Source: Acetobacteraceae bacterium
GTDB taxonomy: Bacteria; Pseudomonadota; Alphaproteobacteria; Acetobacterales; Acetobacteraceae
Direction: 5' to 3'
DNA: 33,171 bases
NCBI GenBank assembly: GCA_027311485.1
Contig: DAICYU010000002.1
Coordinates: 1-33,171 of the forward strand
Shown: one piece after another, positions 2,800-32,612 of the stretch
Numbering within the stretch: the stretch's first letter is position 1
How the letters are laid out: the number at the start of each line of letters is the position of its first letter
Position numbers and translations under genes: made by a program
The notes under the pieces: generated by a model
The model's input: only the letters and a program-made list of their open reading frames with translations
Told to the model about the DNA's origin: nothing
Database searches by the model: none

Positions 2800-2814
2800 G
2801 TGGGGTTAACCGAC
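2800..2814 (-). repeat. Isolated iteron copy overlapping the repA stop codon
   Basis: GTGGGGTTAACCGAC; the repA TAA is the complement of 2806-2808, inside the repeat. Confidence 0.85.
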
Positions 2815-3741
2815 CGCCAGCCGAGGCACGGGGGGACGGGAAGGGTGCAGGGTGATGCCTTTTTCCTCGATCTCGACCTGCGCTTCCGGATAGGCGGCAA
2901 GGGCGGCGCTCATGGCCTCGATAAAACTCGGCTTGAAGTGCTTCATGGCCCGGAAACCGCCGCCGAACTGCGCAAAGATCGCCGGCCAGGAGATCGCTGT
3001 CGGCTTGCCAAGCTGGTGGCACCGCCAGGCGAGCCAGACATAGATGTCCAACGACATGGAACGGTCCCGAAGCTGTCGGATGGCCGCCTCCAGCAGCGGA
3101 ACCGGATGCTCCTTCAGCGCCCGCCAGAATACCTCATCCAGCACGACACGTTCTTCCCACAGGCTTCCCTGCTCGTTTTCCGGCACTTTGAACCGCAAGC
3201 CGGACGTTACGATCGCGCCGCGTGTCCAGCCTTCCTGTTCCTCGTCTTCCCAGAAAAATTTTAGGGTGCAGGCGGAAATCCGCGCGGCCTGTTCGCGCAG
3301 GCTTTTGGCGGTTTCGCCGCCGATCGCCAGTCCCATCCGCTCCATCCAGTCGCGCATCGATCGGCCGAGGGCGACTTCCCGGCTGCCGGTGCGCACGGCC
3401 TGGGTCTGCAGATACAGCAGGATCATCCGGGCGCGGGCGCCATAGGGAACGCCATAGTTGACCACTTTGCCACGGGTTTTCATCCGCCCGGGCTCCACCC
3501 ACAGCGTGACCCGGTGGCCTTTCTTTTCCCATGTCTGGTCGTCGGGCAGGCGCTTATGCGGCAGGCTGGTCAGGCAAAAGCCAGTATAGCTGATGCCGAT
3601 GCGCTGGCTTTCGTCGGCCAATACTTCAGCGGCAATATCCACCAGCGACCGCTGATTGGCCGGAACCATATTTCTGGCCTGTTCTCGGCCATGCAACAAC
3701 ACAAGCTGGTGGATGCTATTGGGTGCAGCCGGGCTGTTCAC
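2806..3741 (-). CDS. repA: Plasmid replication initiator, RepA family (RepA_C-like)
   Basis: 311 aa, GTG start. Resembles alphaproteobacterial plasmid RepA (GRMKTRGKVVNYGVPYGARARMILLYLQTQA..., SLDIYVWLAWRCHQL, WPAIFAQFG). Adjacent iteron array supports the role. Confidence 0.85.
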   Translation of the reverse strand: MNSPAAPNSIHQLVLLHGREQARNMVPANQRSLVDIAAEVLADESQRIGISYTGFCLTSLPHKRLPDDQTWEKKGHRVTLWVEPGRMKTRGKVVNYGVPYGARARMILLYLQTQAVRTGSREVALGRSMRDWMERMGLAIGGETAKSLREQAARISACTLKFFWEDEEQEGWTRGAIVTSGLRFKVPENEQGSLWEERVVLDEVFWRALKEHPVPLLEAAIRQLRDRSMSLDIYVWLAWRCHQLGKPTAISWPAIFAQFGGGFRAMKHFKPSFIEAMSAALAAYPEAQVEIEEKGITLHPSRPPVPRLAVG

Positions 3742-4951: not shown

Positions 4952-6670
4952 TCAGGCGCCGGGCTTGTGGCATGTGCGCCCGACCGCGACATCCGCACAC
5001 ACCACCCCCGCCCCCAGCCGGTCCGGTCGCAGACGATCGCGGACGGATGGCAGGAACAGCCGCGTCTCCCCGGCAATCAGCGGCGCATCCAGCCCGGCTT
5101 CCAGGGCCCGCGCGCAGACCGCATCGGTCGGCGGATGCACCAGCCGCATATCCGTCAGCCTGGCCCCGGCCCGCAGCGCGATCAGCTGGTATGCGGTTGC
5201 CGCGACCGCCCCGGCCCCGCATCGCGGCACGACGCGGAACAGCGTTGTGCCCGGCGGTATCGTGAACGGCGCCGGTACTGCGAACGCAGCGGGCACGGCA
5301 TCGGTGCCGGCCAAATAGCGCCGAAGACCGGCGCGCAGAGGCGCATCGTCCACCCATTGCAGCACAAGACCTGCCGCCAGCAGTGGTGCCAGCAACGCCG
5401 GCCGCAGCCTCGTCGCCAGCAGCCCGACCGCCGCCACCACCCCCGCATCATCCACCACCCACACCGCTCGGCCGGACGCGCGGACCACGCCGAAAATCTG
5501 CTCCAGCAACCGCGATTGCAGCGGAATCAGGTCGAGGGCGCCAAGCGTGACATGCGGCGTCACCGCCAACCCGGACAGTCCCAGCAGGACCAGGATCAGT
5601 CCGGCCCAGCGGCGGCGTATCGTTCGGCGGGACGCCGAACCGATCCACAGCAGGCAGGCAGCGGCTGCGGCCAGCAGCAGCAGGATGCCGGCGCCCAGGT
5701 AGTTGAACCCCTCATACTGGTAACCTGTCGCATCCAGGATCGGCAGATCCGCGCCGAACAGGCCGGATTTCTGTGGCAGAACCGGCGACAGCAGGTTCAT
5801 CGAATACAGGCCGAAACCGGGGCCGCCCTGTCCCAGGCCGCCATTCAGCAGAACGAACAGCCCGACCGGCAGCACGACGGCCAGGCCGAACCGGCGTGCC
5901 TCGGCGCGGGTGCCTTCGGCGCGCCGGAGCATCATCCCGACCAGGGGTGCCGACAGCGTCGCGGCGCAGAACAGATACAGATAGGGGTGGACCAGCACCG
6001 CCAGCAGCAGCAGGGCGAACATCGCCCCGGACCGCGGCGGCGCTTCGGTTGCCAATGGCCGAGCCGCCAGCCCCAGCGCCGCCAGCAGGAGGAACTGGCC
6101 CATCAGGTTGATGTGCACGATGCGGAACAGATACGCCGGCAGCAGCAGCGCCAGACCGGCCGCCGCAGCCGCTGCAAGCCATGCGTTCAGGCGCCCGGGA
6201 GCCGGCTGCAGGGCGGTGAAGGCGCGCAGCGCATAGACGGCGGCGATGGGCTGCAGGATGAAACAGCCAGCCAGCCAGACGCCGAACAGATTGACCGTGT
6301 GGCCCAGGGCTCCGGCCAGCGGCTTGGCCAGCAGCGAAACCGCCGGGTTGCTGTCGGTCATGGCGATCGACACGCCATCCGGCCACGCCAGCGCAGGTGC
6401 GCGCAGCAACGGCCAGTGCCAGCCCGGCGCCTGAAAGGCGATATGGCCCGCCAGGTTCGTCGGCAGATCGCCGCCAGGCACGGCGAACATCCCGCCCGTA
6501 CCGGCCAGCACCGCCCAGGGCAGGACATACAGGACCCAGGACAGGCCGATCAGGGCGGCCAGGCCGTATTGCGCCAGCCAGTCGTCCTGCATCAGCCAGT
6601 CCGGCCAGGCCCCGGTTCGGCCCGGCCGGGCAATACTGCACCGGCCATACTTCGTTCCGGAGCCGATCAC
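4952..6670 (-). CDS. Large polytopic membrane protein, DUF6311-like / GT-C-like
   Basis: Long hydrophobic ORF; shares YSMNLLSP..PQ[KR]SGLF...QYEGFNYLGAG with ORF 13159-15192. Start uncertain (internal Met at about 6592 possible). Confidence 0.75.
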   Translation of the reverse strand: MIGSGTKYGRCSIARPGRTGAWPDWLMQDDWLAQYGLAALIGLSWVLYVLPWAVLAGTGGMFAVPGGDLPTNLAGHIAFQAPGWHWPLLRAPALAWPDGVSIAMTDSNPAVSLLAKPLAGALGHTVNLFGVWLAGCFILQPIAAVYALRAFTALQPAPGRLNAWLAAAAAAGLALLLPAYLFRIVHINLMGQFLLLAALGLAARPLATEAPPRSGAMFALLLLAVLVHPYLYLFCAATLSAPLVGMMLRRAEGTRAEARRFGLAVVLPVGLFVLLNGGLGQGGPGFGLYSMNLLSPVLPQKSGLFGADLPILDATGYQYEGFNYLGAGILLLLAAAAACLLWIGSASRRTIRRRWAGLILVLLGLSGLAVTPHVTLGALDLIPLQSRLLEQIFGVVRASGRAVWVVDDAGVVAAVGLLATRLRPALLAPLLAAGLVLQWVDDAPLRAGLRRYLAGTDAVPAAFAVPAPFTIPPGTTLFRVVPRCGAGAVAATAYQLIALRAGARLTDMRLVHPPTDAVCARALEAGLDAPLIAGETRLFLPSVRDRLRPDRLGAGVVCADVAVGRTCHKPGA

Positions 6671-11919: not shown

Positions 11920-13008
11920 CTAACCGGATGCCGCGCTGCTCTGCAGCCGAGCGGTGTGGGCTTGCGCGGGTAGTTTGCCCTGCTTGATGGTTTCCGCGTC
12001 GAGCGGCACATCGCGAATAACTTCGCCAGGCCGACCCAGCGGGGCGGATGTCGTGCCATCCACGATAATTTCCGTAAGCCCGGCATTCCCGGTGGAGAAC
12101 AACAATCCTGGTGCATTCGGCACGGCCCAGGTTTCGCCGGGATGCAGCTCGCGGCTCAGCCATGTCTGGCCGCTCTGGTTGCGCACGCGCATCCAGACCG
12201 TGTCGCGCGCGCGCAGCACGATGCGGTGCTCGCCCGTATTCCAGGCCGCTTGCGTGGCGGCAACCTGCACCCGCGGGGCAGTCGCCGACGTGGTCGCCAG
12301 CTTCGGCGATGACGGCACGTTTGCCTGCGCCGCGAGCCGCCGATCCTCGCCCTTCACCCGCCTGCGGGCGATCGTAAGCGCGGCCTCGACCTGCGGGGAA
12401 TCACCGGTATGCGCCAGGTCTTCCAGCATCGGCAGCGCCGCATCGGCGCCGCCGTTCAGCAGCAGCGCCAGGGCCAGGTTGCTGCGGGCGGGCACGTCCT
12501 GCGGGCGCAGCGCGAGCGCCTTGCGGAACGCCTCGGTCGCGTCTGTCAGGTCACCCTGTTCAGCCAGTACGACGCCCCTGCCGTTCAGCGCTTCCGGGCT
12601 GTTGGGATGTTGTTCGGCAATCTTCTGGTAGATGTCCAGGGCGTCGGCGAGGCGGCCTGCCCGGACGGCCAGGCGCCCCACTTCAAGCCCCATGGCCATG
12701 TCGTTGGGGTGCAGGGCGAAGGCCAGCTTCGCCTCGGTGATGCCTTCATCAACCTGTCCGGCCGCGACCAGCCCGCTGGCATGGGTCAACGGATCGGTCG
12801 CCGGGGCTGACTGGCCGGCGTCCTGGCCGCCTGCCGTGGCGCCGCCGCCCTGCATCGCCTGGGCAAGCTGGGCGCGGACGTTGTCGGTGATCAGCGGTGT
12901 GCCGGAGGAGGATGCACAGCCCGCCAGGGCAACCACCAGGGCAACCGACATGATCTGCAACGGATATGTACGGGAATCCTGGCCCCTGGACATGGGATAT
13001 CCTGACAA
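11920..13008 (-). CDS. tadD: TadD-like TPR lipoprotein with C-terminal RodZ-type (DUF4115-like) domain
   Basis: Lipobox VVALAGCASS; TPR segments (ADALDIYQKIAEQHPNSPEALNGRGVVLAEQGDLTDATEAFRKALALRPQDVPARSNLALALL); C-terminus HRIVLRARDTVWMRVRNQSGQTWLSRELHPGETWAVPNAPGLLFSTGNAGLTEIIVDG...LGRPGEVIRDVPLD resembles the RodZ C-terminal domain. Confidence 0.8.
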   Translation of the reverse strand: MSGYPMSRGQDSRTYPLQIMSVALVVALAGCASSSGTPLITDNVRAQLAQAMQGGGATAGGQDAGQSAPATDPLTHASGLVAAGQVDEGITEAKLAFALHPNDMAMGLEVGRLAVRAGRLADALDIYQKIAEQHPNSPEALNGRGVVLAEQGDLTDATEAFRKALALRPQDVPARSNLALALLLNGGADAALPMLEDLAHTGDSPQVEAALTIARRRVKGEDRRLAAQANVPSSPKLATTSATAPRVQVAATQAAWNTGEHRIVLRARDTVWMRVRNQSGQTWLSRELHPGETWAVPNAPGLLFSTGNAGLTEIIVDGTTSAPLGRPGEVIRDVPLDAETIKQGKLPAQAHTARLQSSAASG

Positions 13009-13158: not shown

Positions 13159-15192
13159 ATGGACATGCGCCCCTTCCTCTGCCTGAGGACAAAGGATCAT
13201 GCCGTTTCTTCGCAGGCCGGAAATTTCATGGTCAATATTTCGTGTGTATGCGGTGATGAGCCGGCTTTTCTATGCCACGTGGATGACATTGCCGATATGA
13301 TCCGATCTGCGCATGCAGCCCAGGCCGGATGCGATCCTGTCCGTTGTACTGGCGATGAATGCATCGACATTGAATGTACTGGTACCGAACCGTCATGGGC
13401 CGGTCATGCGCATGAATGCACGATGGCTCCTGCGGAAGCCGGCCGGCCGATGAGACCGCTTCTCCTGATCACGCGCTTCCTGGAACGGGACCGGAGCCCT
13501 GCATGGCTGGTCACCTGCGGCATGGCGCTGGCGGCAGGCTATGTCTGCGTCACGTTCGGCATGGCGTTCCTTCTGGGCACAGGCCCGTTCTGGGCCAACC
13601 CGCGCGGCCCGTGGCTGATGGACCCCAACGACAGCATCGACAGCGTCGACGTCCTGGTCATGCGGGTGGCCTACCAGGCCTTCGTGCACGCACCCTGGGG
13701 CCTGCCCCTGTTCTACGTGCCGGGCCTGGGTGCGCCGGCGGGCACCAGTGTGGCGTTGCTGGACGTCCTGCCCCTGGTCGCCCTGCCCGGCAAGGCCCTG
13801 ACATGGGTAACCGGGGCATGGTCAACCGGAGCAGGCGCAACCGGGCCGATGCTGAATCCCTACGGCATCTGGGTCGCGGCCTGCTTCATCCTGGCGGCGC
13901 TGTTCGCCGTCCTCCTGCTCATGGCCCTGGGGCAGAAATCCTTGCTGGCGGCCATCGCCGCGAGCCTGCTGGCCATCTCGATGCCCGCCTTGCTCTACCG
14001 CTTCGGCCACATCGCCCTGCTGGGCCAGTTCATCCTGATCGCCGCCCTGTGGCGCTACGTGCGCGACCTGCCTGCGCGCGAGGCAGGGCGCCGCTCGGCC
14101 TGGTGGGTCGGCCTGCTCTGCACGGCGGCCCTGATCCATCCCTACCTGCTCGCCATGGCCGGCGCGATCTATGCCGCGGCGGTGCTGCGCCGCTGTGATG
14201 CCGAGCGCCCGGGCTGGCGCGGTGTGTGGCGGGAGCCTGTGACGATCGCGGGCTGCATTGCGGCCGTGCTGGTGGCTTGCGGCTATGTCGGCAAGGGCAC
14301 CGGCACATCGGCGTCCGCCGACGGCTTCGGCTATTTTTCCATGAACCTGTTGTCGCCGTTCTGGCCACAGCGAAGCGGCCTGTTCCCGGGCTTCCACGAT
14401 CTGCTGGCAGGGCGGGCAGGGCAGTATGAGGGGTTCAACTACCTGGGGGCAGGCGTGCTGCTGCTGGTCGCCGTGGCGGTCGCGGCATCCTGGCGATCCC
14501 TGCCGGACCTGCTGCACCGGCATCTGATTCTGCTTGTTACATTCGTCTATCTGACGTTGTTCGCGGTCTCGAACATTGTCTATGGCGGCACGCACCTGCT
14601 GCTTTACCTGCCGCTGCCCGATGCAGTGCAGTTCCTGGCGGGCATCTTCCGCTCCTCCGGCCGCATGTTCTGGCCCTGCGGCTATGCCATTGCCCTGTTC
14701 AGCCTGGCGCTTGCGCTGCGCCACCTGCCGTTCGGCTGGAAAACGGCGGTCGTGCTGGGCTGTTGTGCGTTGCAGGTGATCGATGCCAATCCGCTGCGCG
14801 CGCGCATGACCCAGCTGGCGCACCGGCAAGCGCCGCTGCAGCTCGATCACGCCGCATGGGCGGCACGGATGCGCCAGGCGGACCAGATCCTTGTAACGCC
14901 GCCCTTTGGCTGTGGCCGGCTTGCCCTGGATGCCGTGCAGTTGGAGCTGCAGCAGGTTGCCATAACCACGGGGCGGCCCATCAACACGGTGTATAATTCC
15001 CGGTTGCGGGATGACTGTGCCGCCAGCGTGCGGGCCGCGATGCAGGGGCCGTGGGATGCGCACACGCTGTACGTGTTCCTGCAGGCGAACGGGATCGAGA
15101 GTACGCCGCCGGACTGGCGCCCGCCCGGGCTGGCCTGCACGCTGTTCGGCCATGGCGTCTGGTGCCTTGGCCGTCAGGACGACGCCGAATAG
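13159..15192 (+). CDS. Large polytopic membrane protein, DUF6311-like (paralogue of 4952-6670)
   Basis: Shared motif FGYFSMNLLSPFWPQRSGLF...GQYEGFNYLGAGVLLL. Start may be internal (MRPLLLI at 13450), because the first ~97 aa are not membrane-like. Confidence 0.75.
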   Translation: MDMRPFLCLRTKDHAVSSQAGNFMVNISCVCGDEPAFLCHVDDIADMIRSAHAAQAGCDPVRCTGDECIDIECTGTEPSWAGHAHECTMAPAEAGRPMRPLLLITRFLERDRSPAWLVTCGMALAAGYVCVTFGMAFLLGTGPFWANPRGPWLMDPNDSIDSVDVLVMRVAYQAFVHAPWGLPLFYVPGLGAPAGTSVALLDVLPLVALPGKALTWVTGAWSTGAGATGPMLNPYGIWVAACFILAALFAVLLLMALGQKSLLAAIAASLLAISMPALLYRFGHIALLGQFILIAALWRYVRDLPAREAGRRSAWWVGLLCTAALIHPYLLAMAGAIYAAAVLRRCDAERPGWRGVWREPVTIAGCIAAVLVACGYVGKGTGTSASADGFGYFSMNLLSPFWPQRSGLFPGFHDLLAGRAGQYEGFNYLGAGVLLLVAVAVAASWRSLPDLLHRHLILLVTFVYLTLFAVSNIVYGGTHLLLYLPLPDAVQFLAGIFRSSGRMFWPCGYAIALFSLALALRHLPFGWKTAVVLGCCALQVIDANPLRARMTQLAHRQAPLQLDHAAWAARMRQADQILVTPPFGCGRLALDAVQLELQQVAITTGRPINTVYNSRLRDDCAASVRAAMQGPWDAHTLYVFLQANGIESTPPDWRPPGLACTLFGHGVWCLGRQDDAE

Positions 15193-19940: not shown

Positions 19941-20786
19941 ATGACCGACATTCCCGCCGAAACAATCGCCACCACCAGCCCCGCCACCATAAGCCCTGGG
20001 GACATTCTGCCGGATGTGATCATTGCTTTCCTGGCGCCGCTGTTCGCCGCCGCCTGTGGCGGCGACATGCAACGCGCGCGTGCGGCGGCGCGGGCGACCA
20101 TGGCCTCCTGCCATGCCCGCAACCATACGGACATGATCGCGATCGGGCAGATTATCGCATGCGGCCTGGCTGCCCTGTCGTCCATCAGCCGGTCGATGGA
20201 TGACAGTCTTTCGGCGTCCCTGGTGCTGCGCCTGCGCGGCAACGCCGTGACCCTGAACCGCGCCGCGGAACAGAACCGCCGCGTCTTGCGGGACAACAAT
20301 CCAAGGCCGGGAACCGGGTTTGGCAGCACCGTACCGGACCCCGATGAATACTGTGACCTCGATCCGACCGGCATCATGCTGACGGCCGCACCGGAACGCC
20401 CCCTCGAACACCTCTCGGCATCCCTTGGAACATCCCCTGGGGCACCCCCTGGGGCACCCCCTTTGGAAAACATGCCTCCGCTGCCGGAAGCTGACATGGC
20501 AGAAGCTGGCATGGCGGCGGCTGGCCTGGCGGAGGCTGGACCACAGGCCGCGTGGGGCGCGGTCATGGCGCAAATGGCCGGGGAATATGCCGCGAACCTG
20601 CCGCATCTGCCGCCGGCGGAACGCAGGCTCGTGAAAATGCGGGCCTCCTTCCTGGGCAGTGCCGCCAATGAGCTGTTGGGCGGCCGCAACCGGATGCCGG
20701 CCGAAGCCTGGACGCCGGAGCCGCTGCTGCCCGCCGCGCCGTCCATCATCCGCCCAGCCGAACCCGGACCGCCGCCGCGGGTGTGA
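19941..20786 (+). CDS. Hypothetical protein with Pro/Gly/Ala-rich linker
   Basis: ORF with a helical region (ARATMASCHARNHTDMIAIGQIIACGLAALSSISRSMDDSLSASLVLRLRGNAVTLNRAAEQNRRV) and a low-complexity repeat region. Likely start 19941 (ORF track 19833). Confidence 0.6.
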   Translation: MTDIPAETIATTSPATISPGDILPDVIIAFLAPLFAAACGGDMQRARAAARATMASCHARNHTDMIAIGQIIACGLAALSSISRSMDDSLSASLVLRLRGNAVTLNRAAEQNRRVLRDNNPRPGTGFGSTVPDPDEYCDLDPTGIMLTAAPERPLEHLSASLGTSPGAPPGAPPLENMPPLPEADMAEAGMAAAGLAEAGPQAAWGAVMAQMAGEYAANLPHLPPAERRLVKMRASFLGSAANELLGGRNRMPAEAWTPEPLLPAAPSIIRPAEPGPPPRV

Positions 20787-21654
20787 TGACCCTGGGCAGA
20801 CGTCCGGACGGCCGCATGGCAACGAAAGGATCCACTGCCGGATTGACGGCCCGGGTGGTGAGGGCCGCGGCATGAGCCGGCGCCAAAGCGCGATGAGCGA
20901 AGGCGGAATCGCCGTCGGTCTGAAGCGCGCGATCATGCAAAGATTTGGAGCGGGATAGCCGTTCATACCTGAAGTCATCCCGCTCTGATGGGGATACCGG
21001 AGCCGATGCAGCTACGCCGGGCGTCCAGAGGCGGATGCCCATGATCTCCTGATACGGCAGCGGCGACAGGGGATTGGTTTGCGTCGCGGCCCCCTGCGGC
21101 AGGCCCAGCCAGGTGGCGAACACAGCCTCCCGGTAGGGTATGCCGAACGACGGGGTGGAGGAATGGTAGGATGCCACGGCGGTTTCCCAGCTTCCCGTGC
21201 GGTCGTGCAGTTCCGCCAGGAAACGGGCGGCATAGGCGGCGTTGGCGGCGGGATCGAATGCCTCATCCAGGGAGGCAAAGGCCAGCGGATGCGATTTCAG
21301 GTTGATCTGGAAGCAGCCGACATCGATCGATGGGTTGCCGGATTGCTGCGCGGCAGCAACGTATGCCATGGCCGCTTCCCGTGATTCGAACAGGCGGCCT
21401 TCGCCTGCGCGGTTCACCGCCCACGGCCAGGGCAGCATACCGCCGGCCTGTGGGTCGAAGCGGCCGCTTTCACGCTTGCCGATCGCCAACAGCAGGCCGG
21501 CCGGAATGCCGGCGACGCGTTCGGCGGTCATGGCCTGATCGCGGCACGTCTCGCCGGCACCCGCCCGCGCCGGCCTTGCGCCGGTAAGGAACAGAACCGT
21601 GCACAGCACCGCAGCCGCGACGATCCTGTGCCCGCAACAGACGATCGCCGCCAC
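20746..21654 (-). CDS. Lytic transglycosylase (SLT-like)
   Basis: IPAGLLLAIGKRESGRFD (catalytic Glu region), DVGCFQINLKSHP, NAAYAARFLAELHDRTGSWETAVASYHSS. Likely GTG start at 21654 after the TadG stop; ORF track start 21756. Confidence 0.85.
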   Translation of the reverse strand: MAAIVCCGHRIVAAAVLCTVLFLTGARPARAGAGETCRDQAMTAERVAGIPAGLLLAIGKRESGRFDPQAGGMLPWPWAVNRAGEGRLFESREAAMAYVAAAQQSGNPSIDVGCFQINLKSHPLAFASLDEAFDPAANAAYAARFLAELHDRTGSWETAVASYHSSTPSFGIPYREAVFATWLGLPQGAATQTNPLSPLPYQEIMGIRLWTPGVAASAPVSPSERDDFRYERLSRSKSLHDRALQTDGDSAFAHRALAPAHAAALTTRAVNPAVDPFVAMRPSGRLPRVITPAAAVRVRLGG

Positions 21655-21676
21655 GATCCGACCTGCTCCCGCCGGC

Positions 21677-23308
21677 TTACTTGGAGAACTTGGCCGGCTG
21701 GTTGACCGCCGACTGGAAGAATGTCTGCAGGGCGGTCTTGATCGAGGCGGCGTCACTGGCCTGGATGTAGTCCTGCGGTGCCGAAGCGCAGGCCTGCAGG
21801 TTGTACGTTACGCTGCCGGGGCCGGTGCCCTCCACAAGGCTGGCCATATTGCTCAGGTAGTATCCGTTCATCAACGGATAGTATGGCGTGTAGAGCACGT
21901 AGACCACATACCCGAGATTCTTGAAATTCTGGCAGTAGCTGGGGTCCATCGCCGCCAGTTGACGGTTGCCGTTGCTGTCCGTGTAGTCCTGCACGCCATC
22001 CGTTATCAGGAACAGCACCTTGCGTGGCGTGGTGGACGTCATGCCGTCGCCGGAAGCCGTCAACTGCGACCCGAGCGACGTCATGGCATCGGGGAAATCC
22101 GTGTCGCCGCCATTATCGCCGCCATAGGGCTGGATCCCGGTATCCGGCCCGTTCGCGACGGTCGGCGGTCCACCGACATCCGCCAGCGCGGTTGTCCAAT
22201 CGTCACCAGCCTCGCCGCTGGCCGGATACACCTGGGTCAATGCATGGTCGAAGGTGAAGACGCCGACCTGCAGATTCTTGATCGGCAGGTCATTCGACTG
22301 CATCGTGGAGATAAGGTTGTTCACGGCAGCCTTCACCACATCGAACCGCAAGGTGACCTGGTTGCTGGCCCCGATCGTGCTTCTGGCGATGGCATAGTAA
22401 TCATTGCCTGCGCCGGCCGGCTTGCTGGTATCGAAATGGCAGGCGAAGGCGCAGGGCGGCCCGGCCTGGGGATATTGCGTTCCCCCCGAACCTCCGCCCC
22501 CGTCCCGTCCATGCCGTCCACCACTGCTGCCGCTCAGCGGACTCAGGTAGCCCTGGCAGCTTGGCCCTCCGCTACTGCTGGATGGATTGAAATAGGAGAA
22601 TGTATAGGGCGCGTTGGCCGGTATGGGACAGGCCAGCGACCCGCTGTAGTTGATCCCGCCCGAGGCGCATTGATAGGCATTGTACCACTGACCGGACGGC
22701 GGTGTGGTGCTGGTGCTGTAGATGGCACCCGGCGACGTCGTATAGGACGAACCGCCCGTGGCGCAGGGGGTCAGCTGCTGCAACGTCTCGATGTCGCTGT
22801 TCGTCGCGCCGATTTCCATGGACGGCGAGTTGTCCAGCATGATTTCGATATTGAGATAAGGCGCCGACAGCATGCCGGTGACCGAGGATGATCCGGTCAG
22901 CGGCCACGACGTCACCCCGAACAGTTTTCCGAAGAACGGCCTATAGGTTGCTGCCCAGTTGGTTTTCGCGACAATCGTCGTGCCCGCCCGCGTCAGCGAC
23001 ACGTTGATGACCGGCGACCCGACCGTCGATATATGGCCGACCTGCGCATTGAATCGTGCCTGGCCGGCCGAGACCCCGTCGGCGAGATAGTTGTTGGGAT
23101 CGGTTATCAGCGCATTGCTGGCTGCCATGATGCCCGCCAGGGATCCCGCGTCGGCACTGAGTTCAAGTTTCGTCTTGGCTGCCAGAACGCCCGAGAAATC
23201 AATCGCCAACCCGACAAGCGCGATCAGGACCGGCGCCATCAGACCAATGACGATTGCCGTCGAGGCGGCACGGTCTCGGCGGAATTGCATGCGTCGCTGG
23301 CTTATCAT
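21677..23308 (-). CDS. tadG: TadG-like pilus protein (TadE/G N-terminus plus VWA-like region)
   Basis: FRRDRAASTAIVIGLMAPVLIALVGLAIDFSGVLAAKTKLELSADAGSLAG; LDNSPSM MIDAS-like motif; CAFACHFD. Confidence 0.85.
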   Translation of the reverse strand: MISQRRMQFRRDRAASTAIVIGLMAPVLIALVGLAIDFSGVLAAKTKLELSADAGSLAGIMAASNALITDPNNYLADGVSAGQARFNAQVGHISTVGSPVINVSLTRAGTTIVAKTNWAATYRPFFGKLFGVTSWPLTGSSSVTGMLSAPYLNIEIMLDNSPSMEIGATNSDIETLQQLTPCATGGSSYTTSPGAIYSTSTTPPSGQWYNAYQCASGGINYSGSLACPIPANAPYTFSYFNPSSSSGGPSCQGYLSPLSGSSGGRHGRDGGGGSGGTQYPQAGPPCAFACHFDTSKPAGAGNDYYAIARSTIGASNQVTLRFDVVKAAVNNLISTMQSNDLPIKNLQVGVFTFDHALTQVYPASGEAGDDWTTALADVGGPPTVANGPDTGIQPYGGDNGGDTDFPDAMTSLGSQLTASGDGMTSTTPRKVLFLITDGVQDYTDSNGNRQLAAMDPSYCQNFKNLGYVVYVLYTPYYPLMNGYYLSNMASLVEGTGPGSVTYNLQACASAPQDYIQASDAASIKTALQTFFQSAVNQPAKFSK

Positions 23309-23335: not shown

Positions 23336-24118
23336 TTAGGCCGGACTTGTCGCGACCGGATAGTTGGGACAGACGGTTGTCGTGTCGGACGCACCGCCGG
23401 GGTAATATTGCACCCAGCTACTTGCGAGACCGATACGAGGTGAAAAATAGGCCGATTGCTTCATCGGGATGGGCCCTGTGAAGAACTTGTAGAAGAACGG
23501 ATAGAACGTGTAGTTGACATCGACCACCAGCAAAGGACCGACTCCCTGGGTATCGGTCGGCAGTGTCGCGGGGGACGATCCCGCGGTATCCGCAACGAAA
23601 CTGAGCGTGCCGCACTGCCGTGTCGTCCCTGAGCCCTGGAAGGTGCCGCTCCACGCCACATTTGCGGTGTAGGTGCAGGCCGTGGTGCAGCCGCTGACGG
23701 TCGGCTGCATCACGACGGATGAAATGACCACGCCGAACGCCGGCGGCGACGCCGACTGGGTGGCTGGCAGATACGCATAGATGGCCGAGGCCGCGGTTGT
23801 GACCTGCGACAGGGTCAGCTGGTTTGTCCCCGCCGTGGTCGCCGCCATGATCGTGGCAATCTCGGCGATCGCCTGTGCGGTCAGGCTGACGCGCTTCCAG
23901 GCGATGAACGCGGTCGTCAGATCGTACAGGCCGGCTGAAACCGCCATGAGAAGGGGGGCGAGCAAGGCAAACTCCAGCGCCGCGACCCCGCGGCCCGACC
24001 GTGCCAGCCAGTTTCTGCCGAACCGGCCGCCGCGTTCGGACCGGGGTGGGAAGCGGCGCAGGTGTCGGCGCGCCATGTCCTGCATGCACTGTCGCATCGC
24101 GCCGTCCCTAGAATTCAT
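23336..24118 (-). CDS. TadE/TadF-like pilus protein
   Basis: RSGRGVAALEFALLAPLLMAVSAGLYDLTTAFIAWKRV; in the tad operon, overlaps the upstream gene by 11 bp. Confidence 0.85.
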   Translation of the reverse strand: MNSRDGAMRQCMQDMARRHLRRFPPRSERGGRFGRNWLARSGRGVAALEFALLAPLLMAVSAGLYDLTTAFIAWKRVSLTAQAIAEIATIMAATTAGTNQLTLSQVTTAASAIYAYLPATQSASPPAFGVVISSVVMQPTVSGCTTACTYTANVAWSGTFQGSGTTRQCGTLSFVADTAGSSPATLPTDTQGVGPLLVVDVNYTFYPFFYKFFTGPIPMKQSAYFSPRIGLASSWVQYYPGGASDTTTVCPNYPVATSPA

Positions 24119-24548
24119 TCTGATAGGCGGCCGTGCCGACGATTGTCATGACATTCAGCGGCCAGACCGGAAGCCCCGTCGTATAGGTGGCCCGCAACAG
24201 CATCAGGCTGTTCGCGCCGCCGGCATTGAACGGCGCGGACGGCGCCGTCACTGCCTGGAAGCTGGTAACCGGCTGAAGAACGATCGTGACATTGGCGCAG
24301 TTCAGGAAAGCGGCCAGGAACGGGCAGAAGACCACGGACTGAAACCCCGATGGGCTGGCCGGGTTTGCCTGTCCGGTCTGCATCTGGCGCGCCGCTTCCC
24401 GCGCAGCGTAATCCATCGCCGTCTGCGCATAGAGCAGAAACCCAAGCTGCAGAATCAGCAGGGTAAGACCGAAAAAGGCTGTCATGGTCAGCGCGAATTC
24501 AAGCGCGACGGTGCCCGATCTGAGTCGGTGCCGGCGTGATGTCTTCAT
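24108..24548 (-). CDS. tadE: TadE-like pilus protein
   Basis: RSGTVALEFALTMTAFFGLTLLILQLGFLLYAQTAMDYAAREAARQMQTG; ATGA overlap with the tadC stop supports the start at 24548. Confidence 0.85.
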   Translation of the reverse strand: MKTSRRHRLRSGTVALEFALTMTAFFGLTLLILQLGFLLYAQTAMDYAAREAARQMQTGQANPASPSGFQSVVFCPFLAAFLNCANVTIVLQPVTSFQAVTAPSAPFNAGGANSLMLLRATYTTGLPVWPLNVMTIVGTAAYQNEF

Positions 24549-25474
24549 GGCGAGAGCATCGTCCGCATCACTTCCAGCGCCGCCGGCCCGCCGACGACGA
24601 TGAAGATGCAAGGCAGGATGAACACGATCATAGGGATGGTCAGCAGCACCGGGATCCGGGCGGCCCGGGCCTCGAAGCGCATCAGGGCGCTGTGCCGCAT
24701 TTCCGCGGCCAGGGTGCGCAACGCCTGGGCCAGCGGCGTGCCGTATTTCAGGCTTTGCGCCAGCACGGCGCCCAGCCGGATCATGGAGTCAAGGCCGGTC
24801 CGCGCGCCCATGTTCGCCAGCGCCCGGTGCCGGTCCGCCAGCACCTTCATTTCCATGGCGGTGATACGCAGCTCATTGGCTGTCGCGGCGGCGCCGTCCC
24901 GCGCCTCGGCACCCACGCGCTCGAACCCCGCCTCAAGCGCCATGCCGGCCTCGGCGCAGATGATCAGCAGGTCAAGCGCAGCCGGCATGCCGGTTTCCAC
25001 GGACCTGAGGTATCGCTTGCGGTTGCTGCGCACCAGGTAGTCTGGGGCCATCAGCCCGATGATCCCGCCGATCCCCATCACCAGCGGCGCCGACATCGCG
25101 ATATGCGCCGCGCGGATGAAGATCAGCATCAACAGCGGCAGCCCGACAGCCAGGACCAGCTTCGCGCCGACGAACAGCGGCAGCGCGAGACCGCTGCGGT
25201 TGCCACTGGCATTCACCGTTTCCCGCAGGTCGTTGATCGCCTTGCCTGACAGCAGGCCGCTGCGCAGCACGGTTTGCCCGATCACCCCCAGCAGCCGGAT
25301 CCAGACCGGAACGCGGTCCTCGATGACCTCATCGCGGTCGTCATACGGCGTGCGGAGCGAGCGGATGCGGGTTTCGACCTGCGCGTTCCGCTGCGCCAAC
25401 GGCATCATCAGCACGCCTGCGACCGCGCACAGCACCGACAATGCGATCGCCAGTTCCCAGATAAGGCCGCTCAC
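24545..25474 (-). CDS. tadC: Type II secretion F family protein TadC
   Basis: GMPAALDLLIICAEAGMALEAGFERV...ARIPVLLTIPMIVFILPCIFIVVGGPA; GTG start at 25474 overlaps the tadB stop (GTGA). ORF track start 25636. Confidence 0.9.
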   Translation of the reverse strand: MSGLIWELAIALSVLCAVAGVLMMPLAQRNAQVETRIRSLRTPYDDRDEVIEDRVPVWIRLLGVIGQTVLRSGLLSGKAINDLRETVNASGNRSGLALPLFVGAKLVLAVGLPLLMLIFIRAAHIAMSAPLVMGIGGIIGLMAPDYLVRSNRKRYLRSVETGMPAALDLLIICAEAGMALEAGFERVGAEARDGAAATANELRITAMEMKVLADRHRALANMGARTGLDSMIRLGAVLAQSLKYGTPLAQALRTLAAEMRHSALMRFEARAARIPVLLTIPMIVFILPCIFIVVGGPAALEVMRTMLSP

Positions 25475-26432
25475 GACAGGCTCTTCCTGATGATCGCCTG
25501 CATCGATATGAAGCCCATGCAGAGCAGGATGATGCCGGCGAACAGCAGCTTCTTGCCGCCCGGGGTGGTGACCATCGGGGTCAGATAGTTGGGGGAAAGG
25601 ACCATCAGGGCGCCTGTCATCAGGAACGGCAGGCACCCCAGCACATACATTGTCATGCGCGCCTCGGAGGACAGGGCGATGCCGCGCTGCTTCAGGGCGA
25701 CACGCTTGCGCACCACGTCCGCCAGGTTTTCCAGCGTTTCACTCAGGCTGCCGCCGGACTGGTTCTGCAGCGCCAGGGCAACCGCCAGAAAGCGGTATTC
25801 CAGCAGGGCGCTGCGCTGCGCCAGTTTCATCAGCGCACCATGCAACGAATTGCCCAGCCGCACCTCGTCGATGACCCGGCGGAACTCGGCCGAGGTCGGC
25901 CACTGCCCTTCCTCGCTGATGATGCGAAGGGCATCTCCCACGGTGAACCCGGCGCGGACCGACCGCACGGCCATCGCCAGGGCATCAGGCAGCTGGGTGT
26001 AGAGCTGGCCGGAGCGTCGCTGGCGAAAGTACCGGAAGACCAGGCGGATCAGCATGAACAGATCGAGCGGCAGCGAGAACCAGGCCACGGACCCGATGAA
26101 GAATTCGCTGATGCTGACGCCTGCGACGGCCAGTCCGCAGGTGATCAGCAGAACGACCCACCACGGCGCCGGGTACAGGTCCGGCCGGTCGGTCTCGATC
26201 CCAAAACGGGCCAGGGTGCGGCCGGCAAGGCCGATATCGCTGACCGGCTTCTTCCAGGGGCGCCGCACCTCGATCACCGGCGCACTGGTTGGTGAGCGGA
26301 TGGGCGTTGTCACGCTGGCAATCCGCTGGCTGGCAGCCCGCGTGCGCCGATCCGCCGCATACAGCAGGGCGGCTGCCGACATCATCGTGACGCTGCCCCC
26401 GACGATGAAGACAAACGGGTTTGGTATTGCAA

Positions 26433-26436
<4 letters not shown>
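25471..26436 (-). CDS. tadB: Type II secretion F family protein TadB
   Basis: LPDALAMAVRSVRAGFTVGDALRIISEEGQWPTSAEFRRVIDEVRLG...ALQNQSGGSLSETLENLADVVRKR; ATGA overlap with tadA. Confidence 0.92.
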
Positions 26437-27817
<1,381 letters not shown>

Positions 27818-27821
<4 letters not shown>

Positions 27822-29044
27822 CGGCCGATCCACCGCAGCAGGCGGGGGCGCGACGCCTTGGCTTCAGGCCGCTGTGGCAGCAGCTCCCGCGCCAGGGTGG
27901 ATATGGCCGCCTGGAACGGGCCGCGCCGCCTGACGGCGGGCTGGCCGAGGGTCGCCGCCGCATGCAGCCGCTTGGGGAGCCACGGGATCGCCACGTCGAC
28001 GTCCCGGCCCAGCCCCTCGATGACCTGCTTGCGGGTCAGCGTGCCGGGCGCGCCGAGGTCGTTCAGCACCAGGATCGGGCGTGACGCCTGCCGCGGCCCG
28101 TTCGGCAGGCTGAGATGGCGCAGCGCGTCCTGCAGCGAGGGCAGGGTGGCATCCATCACCAGCACCCGGACATGCGCCAGGTCACGCAGTTCGTGGTTCA
28201 GCGGCGTCACGTGGCGCGGCAGGTCGACGACGACGAAGTTGAACCGGCTGCAGAGCAGGGATGACAGATGTTCGGCCGCGCCTGGCGGCGGTGTCACCAG
28301 CCTGTTGAGCGGCTCCTCGGCCGAGAGCAGGTGCAGCCGGTCACTGACCGCGGGGGAGGACCGTTCCGCGAAAAGCACGTCCACCCGCTCGGGGTTCTCC
28401 AGGGCCGCCCGCAGGCCGCCGCCGCTTTTGGTGGATAGCATCAGGGCCGCGGCGCCGCCATGCAGGTCGGCATCGAACAGCAGGACATGGTGGCGCGAAC
28501 GGTCGGCGAGTTCCACCGCCAGGTTGACGGCAATGGTCGTGGCGCCGACGCCGCCGCGCACGCCGGTCACGGTCACGATCCGCCCGCCGCGTGCCGCGGA
28601 TGCATTGCCGCCGGTCAGTGGCGGCAGCAGCCGGCGCGCGACAATCTCCCGGTTGAGCGGCTTGGAGAGGTATTCCTGCGCGCCCAGGCCGCGGACGACC
28701 TGGCGGTAGAACTCCATGTCCTCGATGTCGCCGATGACGAAGACCCGCACGCTGGGCTCGATGTAATGCGCCAGGTTCTCGAGCGCACCGAGCGGGTCGG
28801 TCTGGCCGGAGATGTCCACGAGGAGGGCGGCGATGGGGGTGTCGAGACGCTGCAGCCCGGCGCGCGTCTCGGCGATGTCGCCGGTGCGGAAGTCGGCGGC
28901 CGGTCCCAGTACCGGTGCCAATACATCTGTCAGGACAGACAGCGTTTCGCGGTCGTTGACATAGGCCAGCAGGGGCACGCGCGTCGAACGAAGGCTTTCG
29001 TCGCGGACCTGCTCCGGCTCGAGAAGATGATCCACGGCCGTCAT
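27818..29044 (-). CDS. tadZ: CpaE/TadZ-like localisation ATPase (receiver-like plus MinD/ParA-like)
   Basis: Receiver-like N-terminus (VRVFVIGDIEDMEFYRQVVRGLGAQEYLSKPLN), then TVTGVRGGVGATTIAVNLAVELA and HHVLLFDADLHGGAAALML. Confidence 0.9.
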
Positions 29045-29379
29045 GGCGCGCTCGCCGAGGCGGAGCCGGGCGATCCTGTCGCCTGGGAGGTGGGCGAGAA
29101 CGGACCAAGCTCCAGCGAGGGGAGTGGCTTGACGTGATCCGTCAACAGCCGGTTGACCGCGGCCGAGGAGAGGATTCCCGGGCTTGCGTTATCATTGACG
29201 CCCTGCTGCAGGTGGTGCGGGTTGGCCACCATCACCATCAGGTTGGCGTCATTGAGGTTTTCGGCCTGCCAGGTTCCCTCGCGCTGGAATGGATCATTGA
29301 GGCCTGCGCAACCGGCGACACCCAGCAGGAGCGCAAGGCAGGCCAGTTGCCGGAAGCGTGGTGCAGCATGAAGTGGCAT
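29041..29379 (-). CDS. Short CpaD-like pilus lipoprotein
   Basis: Lipobox LLLGVAGCAG; AENLNDANLMVMVANPHHLQQG resembles CpaD; position between cpaC and cpaE. Confidence 0.65.
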   Translation of the reverse strand: MPLHAAPRFRQLACLALLLGVAGCAGLNDPFQREGTWQAENLNDANLMVMVANPHHLQQGVNDNASPGILSSAAVNRLLTDHVKPLPSLELGPFSPTSQATGSPGSASASAP

Positions 29380-29400: not shown

Positions 29401-30867
29401 TCAGTGCAGGATGAAGCCGGTGCCGGGGGGCAGATCGCCGGCGCCCAGGCTTGCGGTCTGGTGGCTTGCGATCTGGCGGAGTGCGTTCGGCGACGGCGGG
29501 ACGACCGCATCCGGCCCGGTTCCGAGTGCCCGCTGGCGCATCAGCAGCAGCCGGCCCAGATCCCCCGCCGGCACGAAGTCGTCGGTCGGCGTATGCAGCG
29601 CGTTCGGTGAGCTGACCGGGTTCACCAGGTAGGGGGTGACCACGATGACCAGTTCGGACTGGTCACGCTGGAACGCATCCGACTTGAACAATGCCCCCAG
29701 CACCGGGATTTCCCCGGCATAGGGCAGCCCGCGGCTGTTCATGCTGTTGTCGTGCTGCAGCAGGCCGGCGATCGCAAAGCTCTGGCCTGATCCCAGCTCG
29801 ACCGTGGTATCCGCCCGCCGCACCGTGATCGCCGGCACGGTCACGATGGAGGAGCCGAACAGGCCGGTGCTGATCGGCAGGGACACCGCACCGACATTGG
29901 TCAACTGGCTGACCTCGGGGTGCACATGCAGGCTGATGCGGCCGTCGGACAGCACTGTCGGGACAAAGGCCAGCGACACGCCGTACTGCTTGAAGGCCAG
30001 GGTGATCTCGCCGTTCTGGCCGGCGACCGGGATCGGGTACTCACCGCCGGCCAGGAAGCTGGCTGTCTCCCCGCTGCGCGCGGTGAGGTTCGGTTCGGCG
30101 AGCATGGTGATCAGCTGATCCTGGGCGAGCAGGTCCAGGATGGTGTTGACCGAGCCGCCGGGCGAGCTGACGGACAGCGTGTTGGGCGGGCTGGAGGCGG
30201 AACTGAGCCCGTCGGTGACGGCGGCCGCCAGACCCCAGCGGCCGATATTGGCCAGCGCGATCCAGTTGATGCCCAGCTGGCGCGTAATGGTGCGGGAGAT
30301 TTCGGCGATGCGCACGCGCAGGGTGACCTGCACGGATGACGTGATGCTGGACCGGTCGAAGACCTGCTGCTTGTCACTGACGTAATTATGCGCCGCCGCG
30401 GCCACCCCTGCCGCGGCGGCGGGGTTGGAGAACTGCCCGTTCACCACGATGCCGTCCGGGGTTCCGGTGAAATGCGCATCCGCGCCGGGCACTTCGCGGC
30501 GAGCCAGGGCGCCGGCCTGGCCGGCGCTGTACGACGACGGCAGGATCGTGACATCGTACTGCGAAAGCGTGTTGCCGGCATCATCCAGGGCGGCGACGGT
30601 TGTGCGGCCGGGGCCGACGCCGAAGATGAAGACGCTGTTGTGGCTTGCCGGCCGGACCTCCACGACTTTCGGATCGGCCGCGAACAGGCTGGCGATCGTG
30701 CCGTTGATGCGGAACACGCGGCCAGCCCCGGCTTCGAGGACGATGGAGCCGATCCCGGAGCCGGCGCGGGCGCGTGCCGGGGCCTGATCCGCGTATGAAG
30801 CCGTCGCGATGGGCAGAAGCGCGAGCACCGCGACGGCGGCGGCCCGGGCCAGGCTGATCTTCGGCAT
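29401..30867 (-). CDS. cpaC: CpaC/RcpA outer-membrane secretin
   Basis: VVEVRPASHNSVFIFGVGPGRTTVAALD; VTLRVRIAEISRTITRQLGINW; secretin core LAEPNLTARSGETASFLAGGEYPIPV...SDAFQRDQSELVIVVTPYLV. Confidence 0.95.
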   Translation of the reverse strand: MPKISLARAAAVAVLALLPIATASYADQAPARARAGSGIGSIVLEAGAGRVFRINGTIASLFAADPKVVEVRPASHNSVFIFGVGPGRTTVAALDDAGNTLSQYDVTILPSSYSAGQAGALARREVPGADAHFTGTPDGIVVNGQFSNPAAAAGVAAAAHNYVSDKQQVFDRSSITSSVQVTLRVRIAEISRTITRQLGINWIALANIGRWGLAAAVTDGLSSASSPPNTLSVSSPGGSVNTILDLLAQDQLITMLAEPNLTARSGETASFLAGGEYPIPVAGQNGEITLAFKQYGVSLAFVPTVLSDGRISLHVHPEVSQLTNVGAVSLPISTGLFGSSIVTVPAITVRRADTTVELGSGQSFAIAGLLQHDNSMNSRGLPYAGEIPVLGALFKSDAFQRDQSELVIVVTPYLVNPVSSPNALHTPTDDFVPAGDLGRLLLMRQRALGTGPDAVVPPSPNALRQIASHQTASLGAGDLPPGTGFILH

Positions 30868-31757
30868 CAGAAATGCACCTCCTCAACGTCCTTGCCCCGG
30901 TTCACGCGGATGCTGCCGCTCTTGCCGCGCAGGGCCGGCGACACATCGCTGCTCCAGGCCACGGCCGGGGGGGCGGGTGGCGGGACCGAGGCGGTATCGG
31001 GAACTTCGCTGTCGGCTGCGGGCCGGTCGTCCGCTGCGGCGCGCACCGCCAGGGACAGCCGTCCGAGACGGGCGGCAACGGCGACGCGTTCGGCATCGAA
31101 GGGGGTTGCCTCGAGCGTCACGGTCCGGTTGGCGCTGGCCACGGCCGTCGGGTTCGCCTGCGTCCCCTGGCCGCCTTCGACCAGCTGCTGGTCGACGGCG
31201 ATCACCCGCACGTTGGTCAGTATCGTTTCACCCGATACCCGATGCTCGACCGGCTGGTCCTTTTCGTCGATCGCCTGGGTCAGGACGACATCGACATGAT
31301 CGCCGGGCCAGATCAGCCCCGCGGTGCCGCTGACCGGGTCGACCCCGATGGTCACGGCCCGCATCCCCGCGCCAAGGACGGCGGCGAGGAAGCCGCGATC
31401 GCCGGGGTTCAGCACGTCGCCGGCGATGATCGGCTCCCCGGGATTGAGGCTGCGCCGGATCATCGCGCCGCGCAGTGATGACCGCGCCGCGATCGTATCG
31501 ATGTAGCTGCCGGCCGGCGGCTGATGTGTGGGCGCGTCGGCGGCGGCGACGTCTTCCATCAGCAGCAGGGCGCCGGCACGCAAGGCCCGGGCGGCGACAA
31601 GGATACGCGGTTTCGGCACAGGGGCTGGTGGCGGCGCCGGCGCGGCAACGACCTGCGGGGCCGGTGCCGGTGCGGGTTTCTGCGCCGAGATCAGGGCGAG
31701 GCCGATGCCGGCCAAGCCCAGAAGCCCGAGCAGCACGGCCATGATGCGAAGGAACAT
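30867..31757 (-). CDS. cpaB: CpaB/RcpC pilus assembly protein (SAF domain)
   Basis: RILVAARALRAGALLLMEDVAAAD...GAMIRRSLNPGEPIIAGDVLNPGDRGFLAAVLGAGMRAVTIGVD...GDHVDVVLTQ; TAATG overlap with cpaC. Confidence 0.95.
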   Translation of the reverse strand: MFLRIMAVLLGLLGLAGIGLALISAQKPAPAPAPQVVAAPAPPPAPVPKPRILVAARALRAGALLLMEDVAAADAPTHQPPAGSYIDTIAARSSLRGAMIRRSLNPGEPIIAGDVLNPGDRGFLAAVLGAGMRAVTIGVDPVSGTAGLIWPGDHVDVVLTQAIDEKDQPVEHRVSGETILTNVRVIAVDQQLVEGGQGTQANPTAVASANRTVTLEATPFDAERVAVAARLGRLSLAVRAAADDRPAADSEVPDTASVPPPAPPAVAWSSDVSPALRGKSGSIRVNRGKDVEEVHF

Positions 31758-32362: not shown

Positions 32363-32545
32363 TTAGACTTCAACCGAGATGTAGCTGAACTCGGTCGACA
32401 GCTTGCTGCCGAAGGTGGTGATCGCAGAGACGATGGCGATCGCAACCAGGGAGGCGATCAGGCCATACTCCAGGGCCGTGACGCCACGGCGGTCATGCTT
32501 GAAGTTGTGCAGGCGAACCGCGAGATAAGTAAGGGCATTCATCAT
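32363..32545 (-). CDS. flp: Flp/Fap-type pilin (operon copy)
   Basis: MMNALTYLAVRLHNFKHDRRG|VTALEYGLIASLVAIAIVSAITTFGSKLSTEFSYISVEV; AAGGAT RBS; ORF track start 32560. Confidence 0.95.
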   Translation of the reverse strand: MMNALTYLAVRLHNFKHDRRGVTALEYGLIASLVAIAIVSAITTFGSKLSTEFSYISVEV

Positions 32546-32612
32546 GGCTTTATCCTTCATGCATGTTTACGTTGCGTCCATCTTCAATAACGACGCCGCG
32601 TATGACGGAGAT

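Follow-up and report, generated by a model that had tools for sequence, protein, structure and literature searches.

TadD of Pseudomonas aeruginosa, a TPR lipoprotein of ~27 kDa with no further domain, is the pilotin of the Tad (type IVc) secretin RcpA, whose last four residues are gripped by the TPR groove of TadD (PMC10499894). The Caulobacter orthologue, CpaO, is dispensable for pili, and cryo-tomograms of the same organism revealed a peptidoglycan-associated density under the Tad secretin (PMC13170226). The type IVa secretin PilQ carries one to three N-terminal AMIN domains, which bind peptidoglycan and bring the type IVa machine to the poles and the septum (PMC5285504, PMC10653833). In RodZ, an HTH_25 domain is followed by a transmembrane helix, a linker and the RodZ_C domain. 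E. coli can largely do without the periplasmic domain of RodZ in keeping its rod shape; RodZ self-associates in this compartment via its disordered part, and a protein lacking most of the cytoplasmic part is still localised to the septum (PMC6946637).

We analysed a stretch of 33,171 nucleotides from an Acetobacteraceae bacterium (the window), which contains a tad locus and, on the same strand, a gene joining a TadD-like lipoprotein to RodZ_C (Table 1). The minus-strand frame 11920-13008 is open for 362 aa and extends to a TTG at 13008; the best start is the ATG at 12993 with AGGA upstream, giving a protein of 357 aa. The lipobox Cys (LAGC) is codon 31 of the open frame. Pfam profiles matched TPR_16 (E 2.5e-17) and, over residues 264-332, RodZ_C (PF13464; E 6.3e-14, profile positions 1-70 of 72). 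With 52.1 bits the latter score is more than twice the curated cut-off of 23.9 bits and the match is far beyond chance, while HTH_25 gave no Pfam match in this ORF. The same TPR and RodZ_C architecture is kept in two orthologues (genomes G099 and G593). Both halves of the initial annotation of this protein, a TadD-like TPR lipoprotein and a RodZ C-terminal (DUF4115-like) domain, were thus borne out, the former also by the confident model of the TPR part and the linkage with tad described below; the domain limits first read, 11960-12275, were right as well.

Table 1 Features of the window and RodZ_C-bearing secretins of genus g59
Feature	Position	Strand	Basis
TadD-RodZ_C fusion gene	11920..12993	-	ORF, sequence, Pfam, start with AGGA
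RodZ_C domain and conserved LDxxxIKxGKL tail	11971..12225	-	Pfam, comparison with resident RodZ, AF2
Ala/Pro-rich linker, presumably disordered	12226..12339	-	sequence; pLDDT <50 at residues 230-262
TPR region (TadD pilotin body), ~5 TPR-like helix pairs	12340..12792	-	Pfam TPR, AF2, Foldseek
Lipoprotein signal peptide, lipobox LAGC	12916..12993	-	sequence; Cys invariant in 12 TadD proteins
SLT lytic transglycosylase, end of tad cluster	20746..21756	-	PF01464 E 2.7e-7
TadG	21677..23308	-	PF13400
TadE-like minor pilin	23336..24118	-	PF07811, just below its cut-off
TadC	24545..25636	-	T2SSF
TadB	25471..26436	-	T2SSF
CpaF/TadA ATPase	26433..27833	-	T2SSE E 1.5e-65
CpaE/TadZ	27818..29044	-	
Small conserved putative lipoprotein, CpaD/RcpB position	29041..29379	-	small ORF in same gap in L150, L064, L077
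RcpA/CpaC secretin without RodZ_C; C-terminal tail GFILH, presumed TadD ligand	29401..30867	-	PF00263 E 1e-39
RcpC/CpaB	30867..31757	-	PF16976
Prepilin peptidase TadV/CpaA	31764..32273	-	PF01478
Flp pilin	32363..32560	-	PF04964 E 9.5e-16
Secretins of g59 with one to three N-terminal RodZ_C	L064:3244-6030, L065:6537-9503, L067:5673-7553		

Elsewhere in the genome of the window a canonical RodZ (HTH_25 and RodZ_C) is encoded beside an ispG-like ORF. Its RodZ_C domain shares 51% identity with the fused one, and an LDxxxIKxGK tail follows the domain in both; a generic beta-sandwich unrelated to RodZ was ruled out by the profile score together with this identity. Like RodZ, the fused protein has a flexible linker before a C-terminal RodZ_C, but it lacks the HTH domain and the inner-membrane helix, and RodZ_C hangs instead from the outer membrane on TadD.

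The TPR part was modelled by AF2 with pLDDT ~90 over residues 71-220, and Foldseek returned TPR matches for it. The full-length AF2 run was made without an alignment and its RodZ_C part is unreliable; modelled as a separate domain, RodZ_C was beta-rich with pLDDT mostly 80-90. For the comparison with RodZ C-terminal structures envisaged at the outset, the domain model offered this beta-rich fold, but the PDB contained neither a match to it at E <0.001 nor any homologue of RodZ_C that could be found. Foldseek gave only weak cupin/TRAP-like matches, and the predicted fold matched none of the solved wall-binding domains. As no solved structure is significantly similar, the identification of RodZ_C rests on sequence.

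Among the products of the tad cluster, no TPR family match was detected with Pfam and no TadD was found; likewise, the small ORF between the secretin and CpaE had no Pfam match. The cluster does end with a lytic transglycosylase gene, as noted initially, and an SLT homologue is found near tad also in other genomes. The fused gene itself is not a member of the tad operon: it lies ~8 kb past the operon end, on the same strand, with plus-strand genes between. Elsewhere in Acetobacteraceae, tadC is directly followed by a plain homologue of this TPR lipoprotein (L069, L071, L072, L074, L075), or such a homologue is located beside SLT/GT87 genes adjoining tad (L076, L077). The window's genome has a second tad locus, in which a plain TadD is encoded right after TadC (L145). 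The fused gene and the same type of tad locus are linked in three genomes of the Rhodopila group, the window's own (G000), G593 and G099. In the latter two CpaF is 81-83% identical and the fused gene lies ~12-18 kb off on the same strand, and the fusion proteins of the three genomes share 45-48% identity. An alignment query found a relative, an uncultured Rhodopila (Acetobacteraceae) MAG (L160), and a single-sequence query of named genome contigs gave no match. Because of the conserved linkage with tad and the TPR homology, and because the operon contains no TadD and the second locus has its own plain one, the fused gene is most probably the TadD of the window's tad locus, moved out of the operon.

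With the TadD/CpaO pilotin the window protein shares the lipobox, the TPR body and the linkage to tad, and the partner secretin likewise has a conserved C-terminal GFI tail. All 12 secretins compared here end in GF[IL][LVA][HNQE], 11 of them in GFI plus two residues. Unlike the P. aeruginosa protein (PMC10499894), the window TadD adds a linker and RodZ_C. By analogy with Caulobacter CpaO, TadD may matter less in the window's lineage than in Pseudomonas.

A sample of 200 Acetobacteraceae genomes, the window's own included, contained 16 with more than one RodZ_C. On Tad outer-membrane proteins the domain was found in five genera, namely on TadD in four (1-3 copies) and on the secretin in one. 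In the window's genus (g1), TadD-RodZ_C was present in 3 of the 33 genomes examined, which agrees with the early impression of an unusual architecture; since the fusion is this uncommon, it is not needed for Tad function. In genus g35 (G034), TadD-RodZ_C directly follows TadC, and the same position is taken in genus g98 by a TadD with three RodZ_C (G197). In a second g98 genome, G097, non-overlapping contigs hold the TPR part and two copies of RodZ_C, so the fusion there is inferred. In genus g84, TadD-RodZ_C directly after tadC in G147 was reconstructed as one frame of 435 aa from a 127-nt contig overlap; further cases are G083, joined by a 20-nt overlap, and G191, by similarity only.

In three genomes of genus g59 (G058, G134, G183) TadD is plain, and RodZ_C is found on the Tad secretin itself, where one to three copies precede the N-domain; Pfam matches established this for G134 and G183, homology for G058. 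The N-terminal repeats of these secretins matched RodZ_C and not AMIN in Pfam. These fusions are probably more striking than the window case. Wherever TadD is fused the secretin is plain, that is, each tad locus examined has one RodZ_C carrier.

Further RodZ_C proteins of the family were observed beside the Tad cases. The domain is located at or near the end of other proteins in genus g58 (L109:1-1731, L111:1450-2247, L117:1-1773, L080:6298-8175) and in G167 (L084:2279-3919), for which Pfam detected no further domain. In G133 the RodZ_C protein shows a TM-like segment and an extended linker rich in Pro/Ala, and its gene neighbourhood includes a tryptophan-halogenase-like ORF.

Roughly 500 genomes sampled outside Acetobacteraceae contained no Tad-RodZ_C fusion. 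Among ~380 genomes of the class outside the family, the only cases of a second RodZ_C were tandem copies within a single ORF, presumably RodZ, of a different alphaproteobacterial genus (g166; L133, L134, L135), one sub-threshold match (G366) and one genome with 7% contamination (G206). In a phylum sample partly overlapping the class sample, none of ~107 other genomes with a match had more than one RodZ_C. More than one match was found in 15/182 family genomes and 5/283 genomes of the class sample (Fisher p 0.0015). Of the matches on Azospirillum plasmids, the one scanned proved to be a usual RodZ, with HTH_25. Tad pili, TadD and RodZ_C are each known, but the open-access literature yielded no paper that connects RodZ to Tad pili or DUF4115 to secretins, nor a description of this architecture, of its recurrence on the secretin-pilotin pair or of its confinement to one family within this sample.

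A TadD tree built on the TPR columns only placed the fused proteins in at least three separate positions, and a single clade was rejected (AU p 6e-66). In the RodZ_C domain tree, which comprises 85 columns only and whose finer branching is not to be trusted, the fused domains of g98 and g84 grouped with the RodZ of their own genus (support 97/87 and 98/93), and the g59 secretin domains adjoined their own-genus RodZ with weaker support (87/77); the g1 placement was not resolved and G034 formed a long branch. One clade of all Tad-linked RodZ_C domains (p 0.003) and one of the TadD-linked domains (p 0.002) were both rejected by AU tests. Thus, a single ancestral fusion is rejected on both trees. 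The simplest reading of these phylogenies is that RodZ_C was captured at least four times by TadD or its partner secretin and that, at least in g84 and g98, the resident RodZ was the donor.

What the captured domain might do is suggested by where it sits. Two ends of the secretin-pilotin pair stay free, the N-terminal one of the secretin and the C-terminal one of TadD, and RodZ_C was added exactly at these. The lipid of TadD would anchor the protein in the outer membrane and the TPR groove would grip the C-terminal GFI tail of the secretin, while the flexible linker would let RodZ_C reach into the periplasm and bind whatever is bound by RodZ's own copy. With peptidoglycan or an elongation-machinery component as the target, each ring of ~13-14 secretin subunits would be tethered or directed to that site. 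The free-end placement, the AMIN precedent and the Caulobacter density all speak for RodZ_C as a periplasmic tether of the Tad secretin-pilotin complex to peptidoglycan or its synthesis machinery; against it, the RodZ periplasmic domain of E. coli is largely dispensable (PMC6946637), CpaO of Caulobacter is dispensable for pili (PMC13170226), the fusion is uncommon and the predicted fold resembles no solved wall-binding domain, and on balance we consider the chances of a tether about even. The resemblance to PilQ with its AMIN repeats (PMC5285504, PMC10653833) is greatest in the g59 secretins, where one to three envelope domains precede the N-domain, and an anchoring or targeting role can likewise be proposed for RodZ_C as a functional analogy only: RodZ_C is not AMIN, Tad is not a type IVa system and the domain is mostly found on the pilotin.

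The initial annotation had also suggested a link between Tad pili and peptidoglycan elongation. This idea gains strength from the independent RodZ_C fusions on TadD and on its partner secretin, and for the fused TadD such a link may be proposed, although the RodZ periplasmic domain is largely dispensable in E. coli (PMC6946637). More tentatively, and with somewhat more doubt than confidence, RodZ_C could be regarded as a portable domain reading wall growth that was plugged repeatedly into the Tad secretin-pilotin pair by Acetobacteraceae, placing or anchoring pili at wall synthesis.

A rather unlikely alternative is that RodZ_C serves generically as a folded spacer or an oligomerisation module, which binds neither the wall nor the elongasome and makes the outer-membrane complex stiffer or longer on its periplasmic side. 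One to three tandem copies on Ala/Pro-rich linkers are indeed spacer-like, and to our knowledge RodZ_C has no ligand, proven binding partner or established binding function. The periplasmic self-association of RodZ would fit as well, though it involves the disordered part (PMC6946637). However, any domain could serve as a mere spacer, whereas the same one was taken repeatedly from the resident RodZ, and its core motif (GE.W.VP, TGNAG, VDG, LG) was retained in most TadD fusions. It is unlikely that RodZ_C acts instead through protein-protein targeting, letting the Tad machine bind RodZ or its partners directly so that pili form only at active elongation or division sites. The grouping of the g84 and g98 fused domains with same-genus RodZ would be expected if compatibility with native partners were kept, and E. 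coli RodZ reaches the septum without most of its cytoplasmic part (PMC6946637), but the fused domain of the window's genus was not resolved with the genus RodZ, with an identity of only 51%. That the fusion arose neutrally or through assembly error and has no consequence, for which its rare and patchy distribution might speak, is highly improbable given that it is in-frame in three divergent genomes with conserved synteny and that, in five of the seven or eight genera with additional RodZ_C, the independent cases hit two outer-membrane proteins of a single machine which physically interact.

The repeated fusion on the pore protein or its helper suggests a recurrent way to tie a pilus machine to the cell wall or its growth machinery. 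Should the tether reading be true, an AMIN-like solution would have evolved independently, with a part of the elongasome. The capture of RodZ_C by exactly two interacting Tad proteins offers a natural experiment on how Tad passes and holds peptidoglycan and on what the periplasmic domain of RodZ does, and both questions are testable with one purified domain.

Two further features of the window were recorded. The contig that carries the tad locus also encodes a plasmid-type RepA_C replication protein (2806-3741) and may be plasmid or chromid DNA. Two DUF6311 membrane proteins (4952-6670 and 13159-15192) are encoded near GT87, methyltransferase and acyltransferase genes, and these genes around the fused tadD possibly form a surface glycan cluster; a DUF6311 gene is located beside the fused tadD also in G099 and G593.
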